In this document: piece after piece, positions 18,040-37,816 of the stretch
Layout: the number at the start of each line of letters is the position of its first letter
Numbering within the stretch: the first letter of the stretch is position 1
Origin: Phycisphaerales bacterium
GTDB lineage: Bacteria > Planctomycetota > Phycisphaerae > Phycisphaerales > UBA1924
NCBI GenBank assembly: GCA_020831775.1
Contig: JAFIFZ010000084.1
Span: 1-38,226 of the forward strand
Length of the DNA stretch: 38,226 nt
Reading direction: 5' to 3'
Notes under the pieces: model-generated
What the model was told of the DNA's origin: nothing
Databases searched by the model: none
The model's input: the letters and a program-made list of their open reading frames with translations, nothing else
Made by a program: the position numbers and the translations under genes

Positions 18040-18495
18040 GGACACAGGGTACCGCTCTTGCCTGTGGCCCCGCCACCCGCTTTATCGGAGTATTCCCCGG
18101 GTGGTCCGCGACGGTCTGCTGGGGCGCGATGTGCGCCTGAACCGCCAGCCATGCGTGTCATGGTTTGGCTGTTTGCGTCCCGATTCTTCGGCGAGTGGCC
18201 GACCCGCCCAAAATCCGATATCGACAGGAAGCAGATGGGCCGAGTGGTCGCGGGCCGCCGCAGATGGCCACTAATTGAGGCCATAGCGGACTTTCAGAGA
18301 GACTGCTCGGTTATTGGACTGTTCTGGAACCTGGGGCTCTTCGCCGCGTATGTGCTTTTCCGGGTGTTCTCCGTCCCGGAATCTGTTATGTTGTTTGCCA
18401 GTTCAGTGTCGAAGTCTCACTGACGCAGGCGGCGGGCCGTTGGGGCGGGCCGTCACAGTCCCGCCAGGGTGTCTCCAAGATTGGGGTATGAGTTT
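18040..18495. other. divergent intergenic region
   Basis: This stretch separates the minus-strand envelope operon from the large protease gene and should carry promoters for both. A frame at 18151-18423 could give a 90-residue protein with one hydrophobic helix. Its third-position GC is low for this genome and it lacks a ribosome binding site, so I do not call it. No dyad or terminator stands out. Confidence 0.5.
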
Positions 18496-21400
18496 ATGAA
18501 CAAGAAGAGCGTGAATTGGACGGTCTGGGCGTGCTCGCTCGGAATCGGAGCTGGGGCCTTTGGGGCCGACAGCGCAGCCGGGCTCGAGCTCGTCAGCGAC
18601 GGCACCATCCACAGCCTGTCGATGCAGGGCCAGCCTGCGTTCCACAGGACCACCCAGCCGATCAGCAATCAGCGCCTGATCGAGGTCGCGGGCACCACCG
18701 CGGCTGTCGCGATGTGGGATGAAGGGCCAGCCCGGGCGCAGCGGTACGCGATCTCGCTCGACGGCCGGTCGTTCACCCGCCCGTTCGAGCGCAGGCAGCT
18801 CATCCGTCTGCACAACGGCTTCTTCGACCCGACGGTCGGCACGCCCCCGGTCGCGCCGGATCTGCGGGCAGGGCCCGAGGCCGAGTTGTTCATCGTGCAG
18901 TTCAAGACCCGGCCGATCGAGGCGTACCGCCAGGCGGTGCGTGAGGCGGGCGGGACGGTGCATCAGTTCATGGCCGACCAGGCTCACCTGGTCCGCATGA
19001 GCCCCGACGCCCGCGAGGCCATCGAGGCGATGCCCTTCGTCCGCTGGGTCGGGCCCGTGCACCCGGCGTACAAGATCGAGCACGAAGTCCTTCAGGAGCT
19101 CAACGCGGCCGACTTCATCCCCGCTCGCCGCTATCACATCAAGGTGCTCGAGTCCGACAACGCGATGAAGCAGATCGTCGCGGACGAAGTCGCCCGCGTC
19201 GGCGGCGTCATCGACCAGCTCAACCCCAACGGGTTCCTGGTCGACGCGACGCTCGACGGGCAGCAGCTCCGACAGATCCTGCGCCTCAACGAGGTCCAGT
19301 TCGTCGACCGCTGGGGCGCGCCAGAAGAGGACATGGACATCGCCCGTGAGATCAGCGGCGCCAACCTGATCGAGACTGTCGGCGGGTTCACCGGCGCAGG
19401 CGTCCGAGGCGAGGTCATGGACGGGGGCCTCCGCACCAGCCATGTCGAGTTCGCCGGCAAGTCGATCCTCATCCACGGCGGCAACACGAACAGCTTCGGC
19501 CACGGCACGCCCGTGACCGGCATCATCTTCGCGACCGGCAACAACCCGCAGGCCCGAGGGCTGCTGCCCGACGCCGACACCATCATCTTCAGCGCGTACC
19601 AGCAGCTCGGCGACCGCTACGCCCACACGGCGAATCTTGTCGATCCCAACGGGCCGTACCGCGCCGTCTTCCAGACCAACAGCTGGGGCTCGCCGCGCAA
19701 CCTCGTCTATTCGAACATCACAGCCGAGATGGACGAGCTGCTCTTCGACCACAACATCCTGATCACCCAGTCGCAGTCCAACGCGGGCAACCGCCAGTCC
19801 CGCCCGCAGGCTTGGGCGAAGAACATCGTCTCCGTCGGCGGCGTGCAGCACCAGAACACGCTGAGCAAGCACGACGACTGCTGGTGCGGCGGCGCGAGCA
19901 TCGGCCCCGCCGACGACGGACGCATCAAGCCAGACCTGACCCACTTCTACCACAACATCGCCACAACCGGCGGCAGCAACGACTCGAACTACACCAGCTT
20001 CGGCGGCACCAGCGGCGCCACCCCGATCACCGCCGGGTACTTCGGCCTGCTCTTCCAGATGTGGTCGCAGGGCGTCTTCGGCAACGATGTCTCCGGCGGC
20101 GATGTCTTCGACGAGCGACCCGCGGCCAGCACCGCCAAAGCGATCGCGATCAACAGCGCCTCGCAGTACTCGTTCAACAGCCCCAGCGCCGACCTGTCCC
20201 GCGTCAAGCAGGGCTGGGGCCTGATCGACATGGGCATCGCCTACCAGGAGCGCGATCGGATGTTCGTGATCGACGAGAGCGAGATCCTCGGCGAGTTCGA
20301 GGACTACGCCCGCAATGTGATCATCTCCCCCGACGATCCTGACCTGCGCGTCACGATGGTCTTCCGCGATCCCGCGGGCAACCCCGCCTCCTCGGTCGCC
20401 CGCATCAACGACCTCAGCCTCCGCGTCGTCTCGCCCTCGGGCGTTGAGTACTGGGGCAATAACGGCCTGCTTGACGGCAACTGGTCGACCTCCGGCGGCG
20501 ATTCGAACACCGTGGACACTGTCGAGAATGTGTTCATCCAGAATCCCGAGGCCGGTGCCTGGCGTGTCGAGGTCATCGCAGACGAGATCAACCAGGACAT
20601 CGTTCCGTCAGAGCCCGGCGCTCAGGCGCTCTTCTCGCTGGTGATCGCAGGCGGCGAGGTCCTCCCCGACGCCTTCACCTTCGACCTGCCGGCCGATCCG
20701 CCCGTCGCGGCGGCCCCGGGCGACAGGATCTCCTTCCCCGTCGAGATCGTCCCCGGCGGCGAGACGGTCGACCCGAGCAATGTCTTCCTGAACTACCGCT
20801 TCGACGACGGCGCCTTCACCGCGATCCCGCTGACCTACCTCGGCGACGATATGTACGAAGCCGAGCTGCCCGTCGTCCGCTGCGGCGACCGGCCCGAGTT
20901 CTTCATCAGCGCCGTCGGTGACGGGGGCGCTGGCACCGAGCTGACCATGCCGGTCAACGCGCCGCAGACGGTCTACAAGGCGGATGTCGGCGCGTTCGAG
21001 ATCATCTTCAGCGACGACTTCGAGAACGATGCTGGCTGGACCGTCGTCAATGAAGACCTCGTCAGCGGCGCCTGGGTTCGGGAAGTTCCTCAGGGCGTGC
21101 TGTTCCGTGGCGGACCGGCCGCGGACTTTGACGGCTCCGGAAGGTGCTGGATCACCGGCAACGGTTCGGGCCGAACCGATGTCAGCGGCGGACCTACGCG
21201 GCTTGTCACGGCTCCGTTCGAGTTGCCGGAGGGCACGATGATCGGAGAGCTGAGCTACGCAGAGTGGTACTACAACCTCGTCAATCCCAACCCCTTCTGG
21301 GTCGAGATCTCAGACGACGACGGCCAGACCTGGCACGAGATCCGGAGATACATCAGCGGTGATGGCGGCTGGACGGTTCGTGAGATCCCGTTCCGACACG

Positions 21401-21687
21401 AGGTCGACCTGACCAACCCCATCCGGTTCCGCTTCAGCGCGATCGATGTTCAGGGCGACTCGGTCGTGCGTGCCGCCATCGATGCGTTCGCGATCCGTGC
21501 GTTCGTCTGCGAGGACACCTGCCGCGCCGACATCAACGGCGACGGGGTCGTCGATGCCGACGACTTCTTCGAGTTCCTCTCCCTCTTCGCGGCGGGCGAC
21601 CCGATCGCCGACTTCAACGGTGACGGCGTCATCGACGCAGACGACTTCTTCGAGTTCCTGGCGGTCTTCGCCGCCGGCTGCCCGTAA
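18496..21687 (+). CDS. large secreted S8 (subtilisin-like) serine protease with GC-type dockerin tail
   Basis: The protein has 1063 residues. The order is signal peptide (about 1-25), an N-terminal region, then two successive propeptide-like segments (about 129-190 and 212-275). The S8 catalytic domain follows (about 285-590), with D309 in GEVMDGGLRTSH, H336 in FGHGTPVTG and S506 in GGTSGATPITAG. After it come a proprotein-convertase-like beta domain (about 610-720), a jelly-roll-like segment starting IIFSDDFENDAGW, and a C-terminal pair of EF-hand repeats. These read DINGDGVVDADDFFEFL and DFNGDGVIDADDFFEFL, and the chain ends AAGCP. The tail is the GC-type dockerin that I associate with Phycisphaerae and may anchor the enzyme outside the cell. 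The ATG 18496 follows TTGGGG (18481-18486). A strong terminator lies 36 bases after the stop. Confidence 0.88.
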   Translation: MNKKSVNWTVWACSLGIGAGAFGADSAAGLELVSDGTIHSLSMQGQPAFHRTTQPISNQRLIEVAGTTAAVAMWDEGPARAQRYAISLDGRSFTRPFERRQLIRLHNGFFDPTVGTPPVAPDLRAGPEAELFIVQFKTRPIEAYRQAVREAGGTVHQFMADQAHLVRMSPDAREAIEAMPFVRWVGPVHPAYKIEHEVLQELNAADFIPARRYHIKVLESDNAMKQIVADEVARVGGVIDQLNPNGFLVDATLDGQQLRQILRLNEVQFVDRWGAPEEDMDIAREISGANLIETVGGFTGAGVRGEVMDGGLRTSHVEFAGKSILIHGGNTNSFGHGTPVTGIIFATGNNPQARGLLPDADTIIFSAYQQLGDRYAHTANLVDPNGPYRAVFQTNSWGSPRNLVYSNITAEMDELLFDHNILITQSQSNAGNRQSRPQAWAKNIVSVGGVQHQNTLSKHDDCWCGGASIGPADDGRIKPDLTHFYHNIATTGGSNDSNYTSFGGTSGATPITAGYFGLLFQMWSQGVFGNDVSGGDVFDERPAASTAKAIAINSASQYSFNSPSADLSRVKQGWGLIDMGIAYQERDRMFVIDESEILGEFEDYARNVIISPDDPDLRVTMVFRDPAGNPASSVARINDLSLRVVSPSGVEYWGNNGLLDGNWSTSGGDSNTVDTVENVFIQNPEAGAWRVEVIADEINQDIVPSEPGAQALFSLVIAGGEVLPDAFTFDLPADPPVAAAPGDRISFPVEIVPGGETVDPSNVFLNYRFDDGAFTAIPLTYLGDDMYEAELPVVRCGDRPEFFISAVGDGGAGTELTMPVNAPQTVYKADVGAFEIIFSDDFENDAGWTVVNEDLVSGAWVREVPQGVLFRGGPAADFDGSGRCWITGNGSGRTDVSGGPTRLVTAPFELPEGTMIGELSYAEWYYNLVNPNPFWVEISDDDGQTWHEIRRYISGDGGWTVREIPFRHEVDLTNPIRFRFSAIDVQGDSVVRAAIDAFAIRAFVCEDTCRADINGDGVVDADDFFEFLSLFAAGDPIADFNGDGVIDADDFFEFLAVFAAGCP

Positions 21688-27675: not shown

Positions 27676-29247
27676 ATGATGAGGTCATACTCGGGGGATC
27701 TGGGCGGGGTGCTGCGCTGCGCGGCCGCCGGCGGGCTTGTTGTCGCGATGCTGGGGGCGTCCGCCTTCGCCGACGCACCCGCATGGGAGCCGTACCGCGG
27801 CCCCGTCAACGCGCCTGATGTCATGGGGGGGTACATGTCGACCGAGATCATCGTCCGCGTCGCGCCCGGGGCGGCGCCGATGCAAGCCGATGAGGGACAC
27901 TGGAGCTTCGGCCCGACGCCCCAGACCGCCGCCATCGCCGGCGTGCTCGCCGAGTTCGGCGCCGCCTCCGTCTCACCCTCGATCAACCCCGCGCCCGCCA
28001 ACGCCGAGCTCGCCGCCAGCATCGGGCTCGACCGCTACTACACGATCACGCTCCCGGCCGGCACGGACACACCAACGCTCGTCGAACGCCTGAACGCCAT
28101 CGGCGGCGCGATCGAGTCCGCCGAGCTCAACGGGATCGGCGGCGTCCTGACCATGCCCAACGACCCCTCGTTCAACCTCCAGTATGGCCTGCTCAACACC
28201 GGCCAGACCATCAGCGGCAACACCGGCATCGCCGGCGCCGACATCGACGCGATGGGCGCCTGGGCGATCACCACCGGCTCGAGCGATGTCATCGTCGCCG
28301 TCCTTGACACCGGCATCAGCACCAGCCACCCAGACCTGCAGGCCAACCTCGTCCCCGGCTGGAATGTCCAGGCCAACAACGCCAACACCAACGACAGCTG
28401 GCTGATCAGCCACGGCACCCACTGCGCCGGCATCATCGGCGCCGTCGGCAACAACAGCGTCGGCGTCACCGGTGTCGCGTGGGAGGTCTCCCTCATGCCG
28501 CTCCTCGTGCTCGGGACCTTCGGCACCGGCAGCGAGGCGGACATCTCCAACGGCCTCACATGGAGCACCGACAACGGCGCCCACATCGCCAGCATGAGCC
28601 TCGGATTCCCGGGAAGCAGCAGCCTGATCGCCGCCGCCGCGACCTACGCCCATGAGTCCGGCGTCCTGCTCGTCGCGGCGACCGGCAACACGCCGACCGA
28701 CCCCGTCGCCATCCCCGCGGCGTTGCCCGAAGTCGTCGCGGTGGGGGCCACAGACAACCGCGACCAGATCGGCTCGTTCGTCTCGACCGGGCCCCAGATG
28801 TCCGTCGTCGCTCCGGGCGTCGATGTCTACTCGACCTGGGACACGCTCTTCAGCGCCAACACCTACAGCTACCAGACCGGCACCTCGATGGCCTGCCCCC
28901 ATGTCGCAGGCGTCGCGGCACTGATGCTCTCGGTCAACCCCGATCTCACCAACACACAACTCCGAGACCTGCTCGAGTCCACCGCCGACGACCTCGGCAC
29001 GCCCGGGTGGAACCCGACCTACGGGCACGGGCGGGTCAATGCCGCGGCCGCCGTCCAAGCCGCCCGCGACGCCGGCCAGCCCTGCATCGCCGACCTCAAC
29101 AACGACGGCGTCGTCGACGCCGATGACTTCTTCCTCTTCCTCAACCTCTTCGCCGACGGGGATCCGATCGCCGACATAAACGGTGACGGCGTGATCGACG
29201 CCGACGACTTTTTCCTCTACCTCAACCTCTTCGCCCAAGGCTGCTGA
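27676..29247 (+). CDS. secreted S8 (subtilisin-like) serine protease with GC-type dockerin tail
   Basis: This 523-residue protein has a signal peptide (about 1-33, ending ASAFADA), a propeptide-like region (about 55-155) and a classic subtilisin domain. The triad is D211 in VAVLDTGISTSHPDL, H246 in SHGTHCAGIIG and S404 in GTSMACPHVAGVAALM. The C-terminal 55 residues carry two EF-hand repeats, DLNNDGVVDADDFFLFL and DINGDGVIDADDFFLYL, ending AQGC. This is the same GC-type dockerin tail as three other proteins in the window. Its catalytic motifs are much more canonical than those of the larger S8 protease. GGAG with a 7-base spacer supports ATG 27676; an ATG at 27679 follows at once. A terminator follows 28 bases after the stop. 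Confidence 0.93.
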   Translation: MMRSYSGDLGGVLRCAAAGGLVVAMLGASAFADAPAWEPYRGPVNAPDVMGGYMSTEIIVRVAPGAAPMQADEGHWSFGPTPQTAAIAGVLAEFGAASVSPSINPAPANAELAASIGLDRYYTITLPAGTDTPTLVERLNAIGGAIESAELNGIGGVLTMPNDPSFNLQYGLLNTGQTISGNTGIAGADIDAMGAWAITTGSSDVIVAVLDTGISTSHPDLQANLVPGWNVQANNANTNDSWLISHGTHCAGIIGAVGNNSVGVTGVAWEVSLMPLLVLGTFGTGSEADISNGLTWSTDNGAHIASMSLGFPGSSSLIAAAATYAHESGVLLVAATGNTPTDPVAIPAALPEVVAVGATDNRDQIGSFVSTGPQMSVVAPGVDVYSTWDTLFSANTYSYQTGTSMACPHVAGVAALMLSVNPDLTNTQLRDLLESTADDLGTPGWNPTYGHGRVNAAAAVQAARDAGQPCIADLNNDGVVDADDFFLFLNLFADGDPIADINGDGVIDADDFFLYLNLFAQGC

Positions 29248-31669: not shown

Positions 31670-31694
31670 AAGGCGGGGCGCCCTCAGCCGCCTT
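31670..31694. terminator. hairpin between convergent genes overlapping a stop codon
   Basis: AAGGCGG (31670-31676) and CCGCCTT (31688-31694) form a perfect 7-bp stem. The TGA of the minus-strand FG-GAP gene (31684-31686) lies in the loop. Without a clear T-tract on either side, its activity as a terminator is uncertain. Confidence 0.4.
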
Positions 31695-33492
31695 CGTCCG
31701 ATTCGAACCGGACCGTGTGCCGCCCGGCATCAACCCCGGTCAGCACCGTGACGCTGCCCGAAGCGTCCGGCCAACGGATCTCGACCCGTTCGGCGGGGTC
31801 CGGGCCGAGCGCAAAGTGCAATTCCAGCGACTGCTGCTTGCCCTGATGGCCTCCGGGCCCGACGACCATCCGCGTCTGCGTCACCGACCGGCCGTCGATC
31901 TCCGCCGTGACGCGGACCACCGCGCCGATCGCCGGACGGTTGACGCCGCGCCCCGGATCGCCCTCCAGCCGCAGCGACAGGGCGCGTCGATCGGCGCTCT
32001 GCGGCGTCGCGTTCTGAAAGAGCCTCAGCCTCGGCGTGCGTCCGGCCCGCTGCGCCGCGTTCAGCCGGTTAAAACTCTGCCCCACGGCGATGTCCGGCCG
32101 CCCGCTGCCGTCAAAGTCGAGCAGCGCCGGCTGCCCCGCGCCGATGTGATCGATGCCGATCCAACTCGTCACATCGACGAGCGAGCCGTCGTCCTGCTGA
32201 CGCCAGATCCGCAGCCGCTGGTTGTCGGGGTAATCGCTCGAACAGACCATTACATCGAGGCGGCCGTCAAGGTCAAAGTCGGCGAGGGCCCCGTAGATGT
32301 CGCCCTGGTTCCAGCTCTGGATCGTCGGGTCTCGCGGGCTCCGGTCCAATGAAAGCGAATCCCGCTCAACAAACCGCGGCCCGGCGTCGGTGTCGGTGCG
32401 CACAAGCACCCGCGTCGGATCGCTGCTCTCGCCGGCCCACCCGTGCGTGATCTCTGTGAGCAGCACATCGAACCGCCCGTCGCCGGTGATGTCGCCGATC
32501 GCGGCGTCGAAGGTATTGCCGTTGGCCCGGAACGGCCGCTCGTCGGACCGATCGAAGCGGGGATCGGTCTTCGCCCGCTCCTTCAGCCACTCGGGATGGC
32601 GCCCGTGGCGGATCTCGTCGCCGTCGAGCCCGACCTCCGGCGCCACATCCCGCCACTCGCCGCCTGAGTCGAGCATCCAGTGCCGGTTCCAGCGTCGCCC
32701 GTAGTTCAGTTCGAGGATCTGGGGATGGTTGCCCGGCGCCGCGTCGCCGAGCAGGTCGGCGATCACCACGCCGTAGGTCGGCCTGCCGCCCGCGTCGGTC
32801 TCGGGGTCGAACTCCACACCGTCGGTCGGCCAAGCCACACGCTCGAAGGTGATCCCGCCGTCGTCGCCGACCCGCTGGAGCAGCACATCGCTCGGCAGCC
32901 CGGCGAAGCTCCGCCCGTAGTGCTCGTACCAATGCCCGACAACGATGTCGAGCCTGCCGTCGAGGTCGAGGTCACCGACCGCGATCGCGCACGCCGTCCC
33001 GCCCCGAGCCGCCTCGATCTCATGAAACGAGCCGAGCGGGCTGCCGAAAGTCCCGTCCCCGTTGCCCTTCAGCCACGCGACCCGCTGCGGCGTCCCCTCC
33101 GCCGGCGGCTCGAAGCGTTCGTTGTGCACATCCAGATAGCGGGCGAGGATCGCATCGGGGATGCCATCGCCATCGACATCGGCGAACACGATCAGATCCC
33201 CGCGTCCCAGCTCGGGAAGCCCCGTCTGCACGACCTCCACAAACACGCGCCCGCTCCCGTCTTCCGCGGGCCTGTTCAGGAACACACGAGACCGGCCGAC
33301 GACAAGGTCATCAAACCCGTCCCCGTCGAGGTCAACGGCGGCGACATGCCCCGCACCGATCGGCCCGTCGCTGTCTTCAAGCCCGACACTCGCCGTGACA
33401 TCCACAAACCGAAGCTGGGCCTGTGCGGCAGCGCAAGCAAAGGCCGAAGCCAGAGCGCAGATGGAAACGGCAAATCGCTGACAGCAATGCAT
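31684..33492 (-). CDS. secreted FG-GAP/VCBS repeat protein with ASPIC/UnbV domain (CRTAC1-like)
   Basis: The 602-residue protein has a signal peptide (about 1-26, ending AAAQAQ) followed by FVDVTASVGLEDSD, a typical CRTAC1 opening. At least five Asp-rich FG-GAP/VCBS blades are visible, with DLDGDGFDDLVVG, DVDGDGIPDAILA, DLDLDGRLDIVVG, DITGDGRFDVLLT and DFDLDGRLDVMVC, as in calcium-binding beta-propellers. The last 90 residues carry the ASPIC/UnbV element (GAVVRVTAEIDGRSVTQTRMV, then VEIRWPDASG). It is probably extracellular or envelope-bound with an adhesive or binding role. ATG 33492 has AGGA upstream and starts the signal peptide; the frame is open much further upstream through the tRNA, which is not meaningful. 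Confidence 0.9.
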   Translation of the reverse strand: MHCCQRFAVSICALASAFACAAAQAQLRFVDVTASVGLEDSDGPIGAGHVAAVDLDGDGFDDLVVGRSRVFLNRPAEDGSGRVFVEVVQTGLPELGRGDLIVFADVDGDGIPDAILARYLDVHNERFEPPAEGTPQRVAWLKGNGDGTFGSPLGSFHEIEAARGGTACAIAVGDLDLDGRLDIVVGHWYEHYGRSFAGLPSDVLLQRVGDDGGITFERVAWPTDGVEFDPETDAGGRPTYGVVIADLLGDAAPGNHPQILELNYGRRWNRHWMLDSGGEWRDVAPEVGLDGDEIRHGRHPEWLKERAKTDPRFDRSDERPFRANGNTFDAAIGDITGDGRFDVLLTEITHGWAGESSDPTRVLVRTDTDAGPRFVERDSLSLDRSPRDPTIQSWNQGDIYGALADFDLDGRLDVMVCSSDYPDNQRLRIWRQQDDGSLVDVTSWIGIDHIGAGQPALLDFDGSGRPDIAVGQSFNRLNAAQRAGRTPRLRLFQNATPQSADRRALSLRLEGDPGRGVNRPAIGAVVRVTAEIDGRSVTQTRMVVGPGGHQGKQQSLELHFALGPDPAERVEIRWPDASGSVTVLTGVDAGRHTVRFESDEGG

Positions 33493-33562
33493 ACCCGATC
33501 CTAATCGATCGGGCCGCGATGCGGGCTCGCACAGATCGCTCGCGATGAGACAGGGAGGAAAG

Positions 33563-33636
33563 TGGGCGCAACAGGACTCGAACCTGTGACCTCTGCCATG
33601 TGACGGCAGCGCTCTAGCCAACTGAGCTATGCGCCC
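33563..33636 (-). tRNA. tRNA-Val (anticodon CAC)
   Basis: Read on the minus strand, the acceptor GGGCGCA pairs with TGCGCCC over 7 bp. The D-arm is GCTC/GAGC with a GG-containing loop, and the anticodon stem is CTGCC/GGCAG with the loop GTCACAT. The T-arm is ACAGG/CCTGT with TTCGAGT. U33 precedes CAC, giving valine, which reads GUG codons. The discriminator is A and CCA is not encoded. Position 32 is a G, which is uncommon. It lies between the FG-GAP gene and the gene at 33942. Confidence 0.95.
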
Positions 33637-33941
33637 GGCTCGTTCGCCGCCCCGCGGCGGCTCGGGGCGATGATACGCCGCCACCGGACGCTGCGGCAAT
33701 CCGTCGGCGCGGCATCCTCGCCTCCACGCCCCCCCGCGGAGCCACCTCACCTCGCAAACGCCGCCCGCGAGCGATGTTCCGACAGGCCGCACGCCACGAG
33801 GCGCGAACCCGAAACCCTCCGCCCCGCTCCTGCGGCGGCACTCGGCGGAACTTGCACGCCGAGGTGTGAATCTGGGCGGTCCGGCGTGCGTCGGCCGTCC
33901 ACGATGCTGTATAGTGCTGCTGCAAACCACGGGAGCCGTTC
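33637..33941. other. gap between tRNA-Val and the next gene
   Basis: No gene is supported. GCCGCC (33646-33651) pairs with GGCGGC (33656-33661) just upstream of the tRNA. A TATAGT hexamer (33910-33915) could be the -10 of the plus-strand gene, whose ribosome binding site GGGAG is at 33931-33935; no good -35 is visible. Confidence 0.5.
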
Positions 33942-35062: not shown

Positions 35063-35279
35063 TCAGCACCCCGCGGCAAACAGCGCCAAGTACTCGAAGA
35101 AGTCGTCGGCGTCGAGCACGCCGTCGCCGTTGATGTCGGCGATCGGGTCGCCGACGGCGAACAGGTCCAGATAGAGGAAGAAGTCATCGGCGTCGACGAC
35201 GCAGTCGCCGTTCAGATCCGCCCTGCATGGCGGGCGAGGCACCCATCGCGCGATGTTGCTCGCCGGATTCCCGCCCGCT
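35063..35279. repeat. 217-bp direct repeat, copy 1 (3' ends of the tandem genes)
   Basis: This segment aligns without gaps to 36434-36650 at roughly 90-95% identity by eye. It encodes the dockerin tail and the end of the seventh repeat. Confidence 0.85.
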
Positions 35280-36403
35280 TCCGCGAACCGGCCGGCGGCG
35301 TACAGCGCCGGCCCCGTTCCGTCGTCGAAAACCGCCAGATCAGTGACGACGTTGTAGGGGTGCCCCCCGGTCAACCCCGACCCCAGGGCCGACCACGAGG
35401 ATCCGTCCCAACGGGCGATGCCGCTGGCCGGGTTCCCGCCCGCTTCCGTGAACCAACCACCCGCATAAAGCGCCGGTCCCGTGCCGTCGTCAAAGGCCGT
35501 CAGGACCTCGACAGCTCCGTTCACGCCTTCTCCCAGCGCTGACCACGCCGAGCCGTTCCAGCGGGCGATGCGGTTGACCGATCTCCCCCCCGCCTGCGTG
35601 AAGCCGCCGCCCGCGTACAGCGCCAGCCCCGTGCCATCGTTGAAGACCCTGAGGGCATAGACGCTTCCGGTTACTCCCGACTCCAGCGGCAACCATGAGG
35701 AGCCGTTCCATTGGGCGATGTTGTTGGCTGGACTTCCTCCCGCACGCGTGAACCGGCCGCCAGCAAAGACGGAGTGGCCCCACCCGGCCAGAGCGTACGC
35801 CCATGTGTCCTCGACCGAGTGGTGGTTAGTCAGTCCCTGCCCGAGTGCCGACCACGACGAGCCGTTCCATTGGGCGATACAGTTTCCGGGGGCGTGGTAG
35901 ATGTATTCTCTGAAATTGCCGCCAACATACAGCGACGACCCAGACACCGTCATCGCCGTAACCATCGGCGACCCCCCCCAGCCCAGCCCGGTCCCGACCG
36001 GACGCCATGCTGTGCCGTCCCAGCGGGCGATCCCCAAGGTCGAGCCCAAAAAAATGACGCCGCCCGCGTAGAGTTCCGACTCGAACACCGTGAGCGAAAA
36101 GATGCCCCAAGTGTTGAGGAAACTGCCTAGCTGCGACCATGCCGTGCCGTCCCATCGGGCGATGAATGCGGCTGGGCTCCCGCCAATCTGTTCTTCGAAG
36201 TAGCCGCCCGCGTAGAGCGCTGGGCCCGTCCCGTCGTCGAACACCGCCAAGGCGCGAATATCGTCATCGGTCACCCCCGTTCCCACCGGCTCCCAGTCCC
36301 CGCACTGGGCGTGCGCGTTGGCCGCGACACCGCCCAACGCAGCGAGCAGACACGCGACGCGCACGCGCCTCAGAAGCGCACGATTCGTCTCAAAGTCAGT
36401 CAT
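35063..36403 (-). CDS. secreted seven-repeat beta-propeller-like protein with GC-type dockerin (downstream paralogue)
   Basis: The 446-residue protein has a signal peptide (about 1-34, ending ANAHAQ) and then seven repeats of about 45-55 residues. The repeat pattern is VxALxVFDDGTGPALYAGGxFxxAGGxPAxxIARWDGxxWxxLGxG. Seven such units suggest a closed seven-bladed propeller. The C-terminal 55 residues are two EF-hands, DLNGDCVVDADDFFLYL and DINGDGVLDADDFFEYL, ending AAGC. GGGAG with a 7-base spacer supports ATG 36403. It begins only 30 bases after the stop of its paralogue at 36434, so both are probably co-transcribed. First and last segments are nearly identical between the two copies. Its role is probably extracellular, but binding partners are unknown. 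Confidence 0.88.
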   Translation of the reverse strand: MTDFETNRALLRRVRVACLLAALGGVAANAHAQCGDWEPVGTGVTDDDIRALAVFDDGTGPALYAGGYFEEQIGGSPAAFIARWDGTAWSQLGSFLNTWGIFSLTVFESELYAGGVIFLGSTLGIARWDGTAWRPVGTGLGWGGSPMVTAMTVSGSSLYVGGNFREYIYHAPGNCIAQWNGSSWSALGQGLTNHHSVEDTWAYALAGWGHSVFAGGRFTRAGGSPANNIAQWNGSSWLPLESGVTGSVYALRVFNDGTGLALYAGGGFTQAGGRSVNRIARWNGSAWSALGEGVNGAVEVLTAFDDGTGPALYAGGWFTEAGGNPASGIARWDGSSWSALGSGLTGGHPYNVVTDLAVFDDGTGPALYAAGRFAEAGGNPASNIARWVPRPPCRADLNGDCVVDADDFFLYLDLFAVGDPIADINGDGVLDADDFFEYLALFAAGC

Positions 36404-36415
36404 CGGAATTCTCCC
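36275..36415. repeat. 141-bp direct repeat, copy 1 (5' ends of the tandem genes)
   Basis: It aligns without gaps to 37688-37828 with about 10 differences. It covers the ribosome binding site, signal peptide and first residues of the mature protein. Confidence 0.85.
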
Positions 36416-36433
36416 GTACATCCAAGTGCCAGA

Positions 36434-36650
36434 TCAGCACCCTGCGGCAAACAGCACCAAGTACTCAAAGAAGTCGTCGGCGTCGATCACGCCGTCGCCG
36501 TTGATGTCGGCGATCGGGTCGCTGTCGGCGAACAGGTCCAAGTAGAGGAAGAAGTCATCCGCGTCGATGACGCAGTCGCTGTTCAGATCCGCCCTGCATG
36601 GCGGGCGAGGCACCCATCGCGCGATGTTGCTCGCCGGACTCCCGCCCGCT
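36434..36650. repeat. 217-bp direct repeat, copy 2
   Basis: Partner of 35063-35279; see the note there. The two copies are 1371 bases apart in the same orientation. Confidence 0.85.
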
Positions 36651-37816
36651 GCCTCGAACCGGCCGCCGGCGTACAGCGCCGGTCCTGTCCCGTCGTCGAA
36701 CACCGTCATTGCGAAGACAATCGGGGTCCACTGTCCGCCGCTCACCCCTGCGCCCAGCGGCGACCACGCCGCGCCGTCCCAGCGTGCGATGTTGCTTGCC
36801 GGGTTCCCGCCTGCCTCCGTGAACACGCCCCCCGCGTAGAGCGCCGGCCCCGTCCCGTCGTCGAAGACTTCCAGGGCGTAGACCTCCGCAAACTGCCCGC
36901 CGCCTACCCCTGTCCCCAGCGGCGTCCACGCCGTGCCGTCCCAACGGGCGATGCCGCTGGCCGGGTTCCCGCCCGCCTCGGAGAACTCGCCCCCCGCGTA
37001 GAGCGCCGGCCCCGTGCCGTCGTCGAAGACCTTGAGGGCAAAGACACTCCCGCCGCTCACCCCCGTTCCCACGGGCCACCACGAGGCGCCGTCCCAGCGT
37101 TCGATGAAGTCGGAAGGCCAAGACGAGTGCCCCACATACAGCGCCGGTCCGGAGCCGTCGTTGAACACCTCAAGGGCAAAGGTCGAGTCGAAATTGCCGC
37201 CTACACCCCAACCCAAACGCGACCACGCCGAACCGCTCCATCGGGCGATGTTGTTGCCCGGGTTCCCGAATCTCTCGTCGAAGTGGCCTCCCGCATACAG
37301 CCACGCGCCGAGTGACGCAAAGGCACGGACCTCCTCCTGCTCGCGATAGCTGCCGATCCCATCGCCCAGCGGCGCCCACCCTGTCGAGGCAGTCCTGCGG
37401 GCGATGTTTCTCGCCGACACCCCGCCCAAAATCTCGAACTGGCCTCCCGCATACAGCGCCGGACCCGTCCCGTGGTCCAGCACCTCCAGGGCGTAGACAG
37501 CGGGGCTGAATTCACCGACCCCTCCACCAGACGACCACGCCGTGCCGTTCCAGCGGGCAAGGTGGGAGACAACAAGCCCGCCAGCGCGCGTGAACCGGCC
37601 GCCCGCGTAGAGCACCGGGCCCGTGCCGTCGTCAAAGGCCGCCAGTGCGTAGACCGCGGTGTCCCACGAGGGTGAGGTGTGTGTAATCCCCGTTCCCACC
37701 GGCTCCCAGTCCCCGCACTGCGCGTGCGCGTTGACCGCGACACCGCCCAGCGCAGCGAGCAGACACGCGACGCGCACGCGCCTCAGAAGCGCACGGCTCG
37801 GTTCAAAGTCAGTCAT
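36434..37816 (-). CDS. secreted seven-repeat beta-propeller-like protein with GC-type dockerin (upstream paralogue)
   Basis: The 460-residue protein has the same plan as the gene downstream: signal peptide ending VNAHAQ, seven FDDGTGPALYAGG...IARW repeats, and a two-EF-hand tail ending AAGC. Repeats 5-7 are the most regular; repeat 4 (LYVGHSSWPSDFIERW) and repeat 3 are divergent. The first EF-hand has DLNSDCVIDADDFF, where Ser replaces Gly. GGGAG just upstream sets ATG 37816. It is the first gene of the pair, with a long palindrome in its leader (37832-37857). The central repeats of the two paralogues differ much more than their ends. Confidence 0.88.
   Translation of the reverse strand: MTDFEPSRALLRRVRVACLLAALGGVAVNAHAQCGDWEPVGTGITHTSPSWDTAVYALAAFDDGTGPVLYAGGRFTRAGGLVVSHLARWNGTAWSSGGGVGEFSPAVYALEVLDHGTGPALYAGGQFEILGGVSARNIARRTASTGWAPLGDGIGSYREQEEVRAFASLGAWLYAGGHFDERFGNPGNNIARWSGSAWSRLGWGVGGNFDSTFALEVFNDGSGPALYVGHSSWPSDFIERWDGASWWPVGTGVSGGSVFALKVFDDGTGPALYAGGEFSEAGGNPASGIARWDGTAWTPLGTGVGGGQFAEVYALEVFDDGTGPALYAGGVFTEAGGNPASNIARWDGAAWSPLGAGVSGGQWTPIVFAMTVFDDGTGPALYAGGRFEAAGGSPASNIARWVPRPPCRADLNSDCVIDADDFFLYLDLFADSDPIADINGDGVIDADDFFEYLVLFAAGC

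Follow-up and report, generated by a model that had tools for sequence, protein, structure and literature searches.

The locus described here raises the question of why two neighbouring genes should be nearly identical at both ends and strongly divergent in between: either gene conversion keeps their signal peptides and dockerins alike, or the middle evolves fast. Both genes lie in the window, the 38,226-nt stretch of DNA analyzed (contig JAFIFZ010000084.1 of assembly GCA_020831775.1, Phycisphaerales bacterium), and their features are collected in Table 1. The genus is represented by three genomes, all draft: that of the window (G000) and those of two congeners, G001 and G002; the G001 contig carrying the locus is identical to REET01000061.1 of Phycisphaerales bacterium PLM2.Bin57. 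The motif found ahead of gene 1 also precedes the start codon of gene 2 and is likely the ribosome site of both genes, which would form an operon. A GC-rich inverted repeat and a T run were noticed by eye, unscored, downstream of gene 1. The signal-peptide-like start of both proteins was likewise judged by eye, and both end in LFAAGC. In the gene 1 dockerin, two Ca-loop-like motifs were seen by eye, together with the terminal AAGC.

Table 1. Coordinates of the paralogous dockerin genes and of their parts in the window.
Feature	Position	Strand	Description
Gene 2, 460 aa	36434..37816	minus	First transcribed; signal-peptide-like start, seven blades, GC-type dockerin
Gene 1, 446 aa	35063..36403	minus	Second transcribed; architecture as gene 2
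Intergenic gap, 30 nt	36404..36433	minus	GGGAGAA before the ATG of gene 1
Gene 1 5' tract, probably homogenised, 129 nt	36275..36403	minus	Covers the signal peptide and the start of blade 1; 122/129 nt shared with gene 2
Gene 2 5' tract, probably homogenised	37688..37816	minus	126/129 identical to G001 gene 2
Gene 1 3' tract, probably homogenised	35063..35322	minus	Dockerin with the end of blade 7; 242/260 nt shared with gene 2
Gene 2 3' tract, probably homogenised	36434..36693	minus	Counterpart of gene 1 35063..35322
Gene 1 propeller, seven blades	35243..36295	minus	HMM repeats and AlphaFold2 model
Gene 2 propeller, seven blades	36614..37708	minus	HMM repeats and AlphaFold2 model
Gene 2 variable segment, most of blades 1-2	37402..37687	minus	38-78% per window against G001, flanks conserved
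Gene 2 blades 3-4	37082..37378	minus	Conserved between species; all gene 1 blades at most 62%
Gene 1 GC-type dockerin	35063..35227	minus	NF041540, 59.7 bits (cut-off 29)
Gene 2 GC-type dockerin	36434..36598	minus	NF041540, 55.6 bits (cut-off 29)

Alignment of the two genes bore out the sequence-only reading that their ends are near-identical and free of gaps, with 127 of 141 nt alike at the 5' end (90.1%) and 205 of 217 at the 3' end (94.5%), both ungapped. In a 60-nt sliding profile, the check proposed with that reading, identity is 93-97% in the first windows, falls at about nt 129, ranges between 35 and 83% with many gaps through the middle, climbs back at about nt 1094 of gene 1 and stays at 92-98% over the last 240 nt or so. 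This stepped profile rules out a smooth fall of identity along the genes. The likeness of the paralogues stops at the stop codon, only 8 of the following 40 nt being alike. It also exceeds what the same protein and codon bias would give: identity in the first 43 codons is 0.946 against an expected 0.785 ± 0.026 (maximum of 500 draws, 0.860), and in the last 74 codons 0.937 against 0.783 ± 0.020 (maximum 0.851). The 20 codons preceding the dockerin, which fall outside the general likeness of dockerins in this genome, reach 95% where 74% is expected.

The repeats between these ends are compatible with a closed seven-bladed propeller, as had been proposed from their number. HMM analysis detected seven repeats of 44-57 residues in each protein, and the AlphaFold2 models (alignments of 16 sequences; pLDDT 84.4 and 86.4, pTM 0.81 and 0.83) each list 28 strands, which make seven groups of four when sorted by position in the strand lists rather than from coordinates; in both models the strands are followed by two helices in the dockerin. 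When 37 complete related ORFs were searched with a blade profile built from the pair's own 14 blades, 10 proved to contain 7 repeats and 7 to contain 14; both the profile and the loci are biased towards this pair. Restricted to the 22 contiguous arrays (no gap above 25 residues), the count is 10 arrays of 7 blades and 6 of 14, the others having 4, 6, 6, 11, 13 and 13, and it includes the pair itself and the G002 orthologue. Structural comparison of the gene 1 model by VIA gave, in 24 of the top 25 rows, Z values of 26-27 and, across 271-292 residues, rmsd of 2.5-3.6 (19.4 in the remaining row); many of the matched chains are seven-bladed. Foldseek returned WD40 chains mixed with kelch and SAKe6 chains, the latter two six-bladed, with query TM values of 0.34-0.50 in the rows shown, so that fold search alone does not settle the number seven. 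Two Pfam propeller models gave matches, the Rax2 C-terminal propeller (PF12768; 32.6 bits for gene 1 against a cut-off of 28.8, no match for gene 2) and DUF5122 (PF17164; 30.2 bits for gene 1 and 22.2 for gene 2, cut-off 27). Across 24 aligned blades (28 minus four blade 7s), the strand 1-2 connection shows the greatest variation in length (s.d. 2.4 residues, against 1.6 in both the 3-4 connection and the 2-3 turn), and differences between orthologues in blades 3-6 amount to 45/107 in the 1-2 connection, 16/48 in the 4-1 turn and 23/111 in the 3-4 connection.

The congener loci give the age of the pair. In G002, the gene 2 orthologue is complete (L062:3603-4946) and is followed after 27 nt by the start of gene 1, of which the first 60 codons are present (L062:4974-5153) before the contig ends. 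After codon 43 this second gene reads VTDDYVFALAVFDDGTG and gene 1 reads VTDDDIRALAVFDDGTG, with 44 of 51 nt alike over codons 44-60, gene 2 being unlike. The G001 orthologue of gene 2 (L064:3586-4720) ends with its contig inside the last blade, within the tract shared at the 3' end, and the matches listed include no gene 1 from this genome. Since a gene 1-type start stands behind gene 2 in G002, the tandem pair is, on the sequences compared, ancestral and older than the split of G000 and G002. Gene 1 being cut at codon 60 in G002 and not seen in G001, its core has no orthologue for comparison, and the core comparisons below are those of gene 2.

Relationships differ between the parts of these old genes. 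Over the first 129 nt, the paralogues share 122 positions in G000 and 111 in G002, against 107 (gene 1) and 103 (gene 2) shared by the G000 and G002 orthologues. Synonymous divergence in the first 43 codons, calculated from few sites (34-36), follows the same order, with dS of 0.13 between the paralogues of either genome and of 0.35 (gene 1) and 0.27 (gene 2) between orthologues. Quartet patterns in these codons group 11 sites by species, one by gene and none crossed, compared with 1, 4 and 1 after codon 43 (Fisher 0.0099). The two 5' ends of G002 are alike at only 32 of 43 residues (dN 0.16). The 5' end of gene 2 in G000 is nearer to that of G001 gene 2 (126/129, dS 0.06) than to that of gene 1 (122/129), although only a few sites make the difference. 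In the G000 lineage, the 5' exchange is therefore probably no younger than the G000-G001 split and would have taken place before or about that split. At the other end, where the comparison relies on three sequences, dS over the last 88 codons is 0.14 between the G000 paralogues, against 0.70 (gene 2) and 0.57 (gene 1) to G002 gene 2. Blades 3-4 present the opposite picture: paralogues differ by a dS of 1.5 (49% DNA identity) and gene 2 orthologues by 0.16 (G000-G001), 0.41 (G000-G002) and 0.46 (G001-G002), with 81-88% identity.

The same contrast emerges from site patterns, counted as positions at which only gene 1 and gene 2, only gene 2 and G002, or only gene 1 and G002 agree (G002 being represented by its gene 2). 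The counts are 22/5/1 in the 5' end, 28/42/29 in blades 1-2, 17/113/14 in blades 3-4, 29/31/21 in blades 5-6, 13/14/5 in the start of blade 7 and 35/2/12 in the 3' end. Comparing the first two classes, the ends give 57 against 7 and the middle 87 against 200 (Fisher 1.5e-18, treating sites as independent). As blades 5-6 and the start of blade 7 are near-even, it is chiefly blades 3-4 that carry the signal of orthology in the middle. The 5' ends are thus shown, on the sequences available, to group by genome and blades 3-4 by gene, with sharp tract edges. Tracts grouping by genome within genes that otherwise group by orthology, the mark of gene conversion, were found with the three genomes. The G002 locus is more diverged in blades 3-4 (dS 0.41) than eight chosen G000-G002 gene pairs (median body dS 0.22), and import of this locus may add to the contrast between ends and core.

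Grouping of the 5' ends by genome together with grouping of blades 3-4 by gene is the pattern that gene conversion of the ends predicts, and we consider it likely that gene conversion has homogenised both ends of an old propeller pair, the inner blades keeping separate histories. According to this explanation, an old tandem pair would have encoded secreted seven-bladed propeller proteins, and the DNA of their common frame (signal peptide with the start of blade 1, and dockerin with the end of blade 7) would have been homogenised by homologous recombination, in the G000 lineage after its split from G002, the G002 5' ends seeming to have been homogenised separately. Recombination between the two 5' ends and between the two 3' ends would hold the frame in common, and the core, too diverged for pairing, would escape exchange; separate histories would thereby be retained in the inner blades, most clearly in blades 3-4. 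In functional terms, the like signal peptides would export both proteins, the like dockerins would attach or sort both to a partner, and the differing inner blades would bind different ligands, giving each protein its own.

The two possibilities offered by the sequence-only reading fared unevenly. Conversion of the ends is favoured by the comparison with the two congeners, and a fast-evolving middle, likened in that reading to diversifying recognition proteins, fits blades 1-2 of gene 2 but not blades 3-4 with their conservation among orthologues. Comparison of gene 2 with G001 in 45-nt windows gave 84-100% identity from 280 nt upstream of the gene to nt 125, then 38-78% with gaps until about nt 415, and 73-98% from there to the contig end, except for one window of 56%. 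Between these two genomes, blades 1-2 have a dS of 0.55 and a dN of 0.54, with gaps, the corresponding values for blades 3-4 being 0.16 and 0.12. This sharp drop in identity indicates that some 290 nt within blades 1-2 of gene 2 are, as far as their sequence tells, either replaced or fast-evolving, and blades 1-2 may be the diversifying part of the protein. No likely donor was found at the examined loci, the nearest other blades being 63-64% identical to those of gene 2 and 58-68% to those of G001. A target of a diversity-generating retroelement was considered and rejected, as no reverse transcriptase (PF00078) was found in the window's own genome (95% complete) by a search whose control was positive in 3 of 14. 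Elsewhere in the core, gene 2 blades 3, 4 and 5 are 80-89% identical to those of the orthologues, with the exception of blade 5 in G002 (75%), and none of the gene 1 blades exceeds 62% against gene 2 blades 3 or 4.

The replaced-looking segment, lying between conserved flanks in G000 and G001, together with the low dS at the ends, would also suit a recent duplication after which one copy had its inner blades replaced from an unsampled donor. We regard this as unlikely. The pair is already present in G002, where the sequence past codon 43 is of the gene 1 type, and two lineages would therefore have to have duplicated the gene separately; beyond the pair and the orthologues of gene 2, the 516 blades of the examined loci yielded none above 73% identity. 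Still less probable is an origin without any exchange, in which the signal peptide and the dockerin are strongly constrained and the middle simply diverged faster. Dockerins are indeed generally alike in this genome and share more codons than expected (0.71 against 0.56 over 1,327 pairs), but the dS of the ends is lower between paralogues than between G000 and G002. In addition, the first 43 residues do vary freely from one species to the other: G000 and G002 differ at 11 of them in gene 1 and at 14 in gene 2, the G000 paralogues at 3; protein constraint therefore does not account for the likeness of the paralogues, which already contradicts this reading. Finally, an assembly artefact, through which repeats common to both genes were merged or crossed in the draft assemblies, is very unlikely: contigs do stop in the 3' shared tract of G001 and in gene 1 of G002, and assemblers may halt at repeats, but both genes of the window are intact, their ends differ by scattered substitutions and their longest exact match is 58 nt.

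Among known systems, the pair is close to the Tpr family of Treponema, surface-protein paralogues with conserved ends, a variable centre and recombination. The pair resembles that family in its like termini, its unlike centre and its probable recombination, and differs from it in fold. Searches of the literature, judged by title and start of abstract, returned no relevant paper on dockerin gene conversion, or on gene conversion with beta-propeller, paralog or blade; no paper on the GC-type dockerin was found in the literature search either. Ongoing amplification of blades within propellers has been described (Pereira and Lupas, 2022; PMC9218822), and the 80% DNA identity between gene 2 blades 5 and 6 is a possible likeness to such blade copying within a gene; unlike that amplification, the notable exchange of the pair is between the ends of neighbouring paralogues. 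For freshwater Planctomycetes, a cohesin-dockerin 'planctosome' has been proposed (PMC6461901). Its proteins are, like the probably exported proteins of the pair, secreted dockerin proteins without link to cellulose; the proposal rests on cohesins, whereas none of the 3 genomes of the pair's genus yielded a match to the Pfam cohesin. If conversion of the ends is correct, the pair would be a clean natural case of a common export and docking frame with a diverging region that presumably faces the ligand; the genome concerned has 120 matches to the dockerin model, and no cohesin was detected there. The docking partner of such orphan dockerins would become testable, as would blades 1-2 as a diversifying binding surface. 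Taken from sequence, the pair points to two specificities on one export-and-docking frame.

The dockerins themselves belong to a large set. Matches to NF041540, the model of GC-type dockerin-anchored proteins, number 120 in the window genome, 77 in G001 and 64 in G002; both proteins of the pair score above its cut-off and conform to it in the extreme C-terminal placement and the GC ending, and the model's name gives neither ligand nor partner. Type I dockerin (PF00404) had no match in either protein at E values up to 1, and EF-hand models matched below cut-off only. Cohesin PF00963 was searched in the three genomes of the genus at E ≤ 0.001, with a control positive in 1 of 14, a threshold that a diverged cohesin could escape; in a family sample of 31 genomes, the window genome included, it was found in 2. 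Dockerin DNA is alike throughout the genome (median 80%, 95th percentile 90% over 168 nt in 54 ORFs), several pairs on different contigs reaching 95%, above the 93% of this pair, which calls for caution in interpreting the likeness of the 3' ends.

A search for more paralogues with the same ends, also proposed with the sequence-only reading, established no other pair with signal-peptide DNA this alike among the 96 dockerin ORFs examined in the genome. Many pairs showed an apparent sharing of 5' ends, which was traced, in all three of the pairs aligned, to the dockerin end of the upstream neighbour; as this stretch lies inside the stop-to-stop frame, such 5'-end matches were left uncounted. Further matches lie within tandem arrays (e.g., L038 and L162). 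At the 3' end, dockerins were recognised by a pattern that passed 96 ORFs in the window genome, 23 in G001 and 28 in G002, against 120, 77 and 64 NF041540 matches, and 49 reciprocal-best pairs were compared overall. Among the 37 with body dS below 0.45, dockerin dS exceeds body dS in 21, and at p < 0.01 it is higher in 7 (five gene groups, hence non-independent rows) and lower in 1; in the 12 pairs with body dS of at least 0.45, it is lower at p < 0.01 in 3. For gene 2, body and dockerin dS are 0.56 and 0.85 (p 0.2, non-significant), and its dockerin is nearer to that of its paralogue (0.932) than to that of its orthologue (0.809), the largest excess of the 49 rows bar one that is out of register. 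Among the dockerins examined, the nearest one from the other genome is the orthologue's in 36 of the 49 pairs. Given these 36 pairs and the p value of gene 2, the evidence for genome-wide dockerin exchange, and hence for recombination through dockerin DNA beyond the propeller pair, is suggestive only, with draft assemblies as a caveat. It is doubtful that dockerin 3' ends form a genome-wide exchange platform by which about a hundred secreted proteins would reassort bodies and docking ends, the pair exchanging its 5' end as well and blades 1-2 being a hypervariable recognition module. The strongest case is a 312-aa protein (C35 in G000 and C371 in G002), with a body dS of 0.01: nine 40-nt windows before the last 120 nt are identical, the dockerin differs, and the downstream sequence is 50% alike.

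The window genome carries 120 GC-type dockerin (NCBIfam NF041540) matches and its two congeners 77 and 64, and Pfam cohesin (PF00963, E <= 0.001) was absent from all three genomes; this abundance of dockerins together with the lack of Pfam cohesin puts the docking partner in question. The window also codes two subtilase-family (S8) proteins, each with a C-terminal GC-type dockerin. The tandem propeller pair likewise contributes to the window's dockerin matches.

Within gene 2 of the tandem propeller pair, blades 5 and 6 share 80% DNA identity, a likeness exceeding that between blade 6 and its counterpart in the congener G001 (73%), hinting, on these sequence comparisons, at intragenic blade copying. 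Fourteen repeats occur in the relatives at loci L080-L085, L090 and L091, in records from Planctomycetota, Acidobacteriota, Thermoanaerobaculia and Hymenobacter; do these proteins each hold two consecutive propellers?

A 312-aa dockerin protein is found in two species, at L157 (C35 of the window genome, G000) and at L137 (C371 of the other congener, G002). Between them, dS is 0.01 in the body and 0.29 in the dockerin, and the DNA downstream of the gene is just 50% alike, a contrast that may reflect either recent transfer with a breakpoint inside the dockerin or mixed bins.

Coordinates of features in the window
Feature	Position	Strand
S8 protein, C-terminal GC-type dockerin	18469-21687	
GC-type dockerin	21520-21681	
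S8 protein, C-terminal GC-type dockerin	27676-29247	
GC-type dockerin	29083-29244	
Long ORF, FG-GAP, UnbV/ASPIC	31684-33930	
tRNA-Val (cac)	33562-33636	minus
Gene 2, blades 5 and 6	36767-37081	

Since the tRNA-Val (cac) lies within the first part of the long FG-GAP ORF, the true start of the latter is likely downstream.
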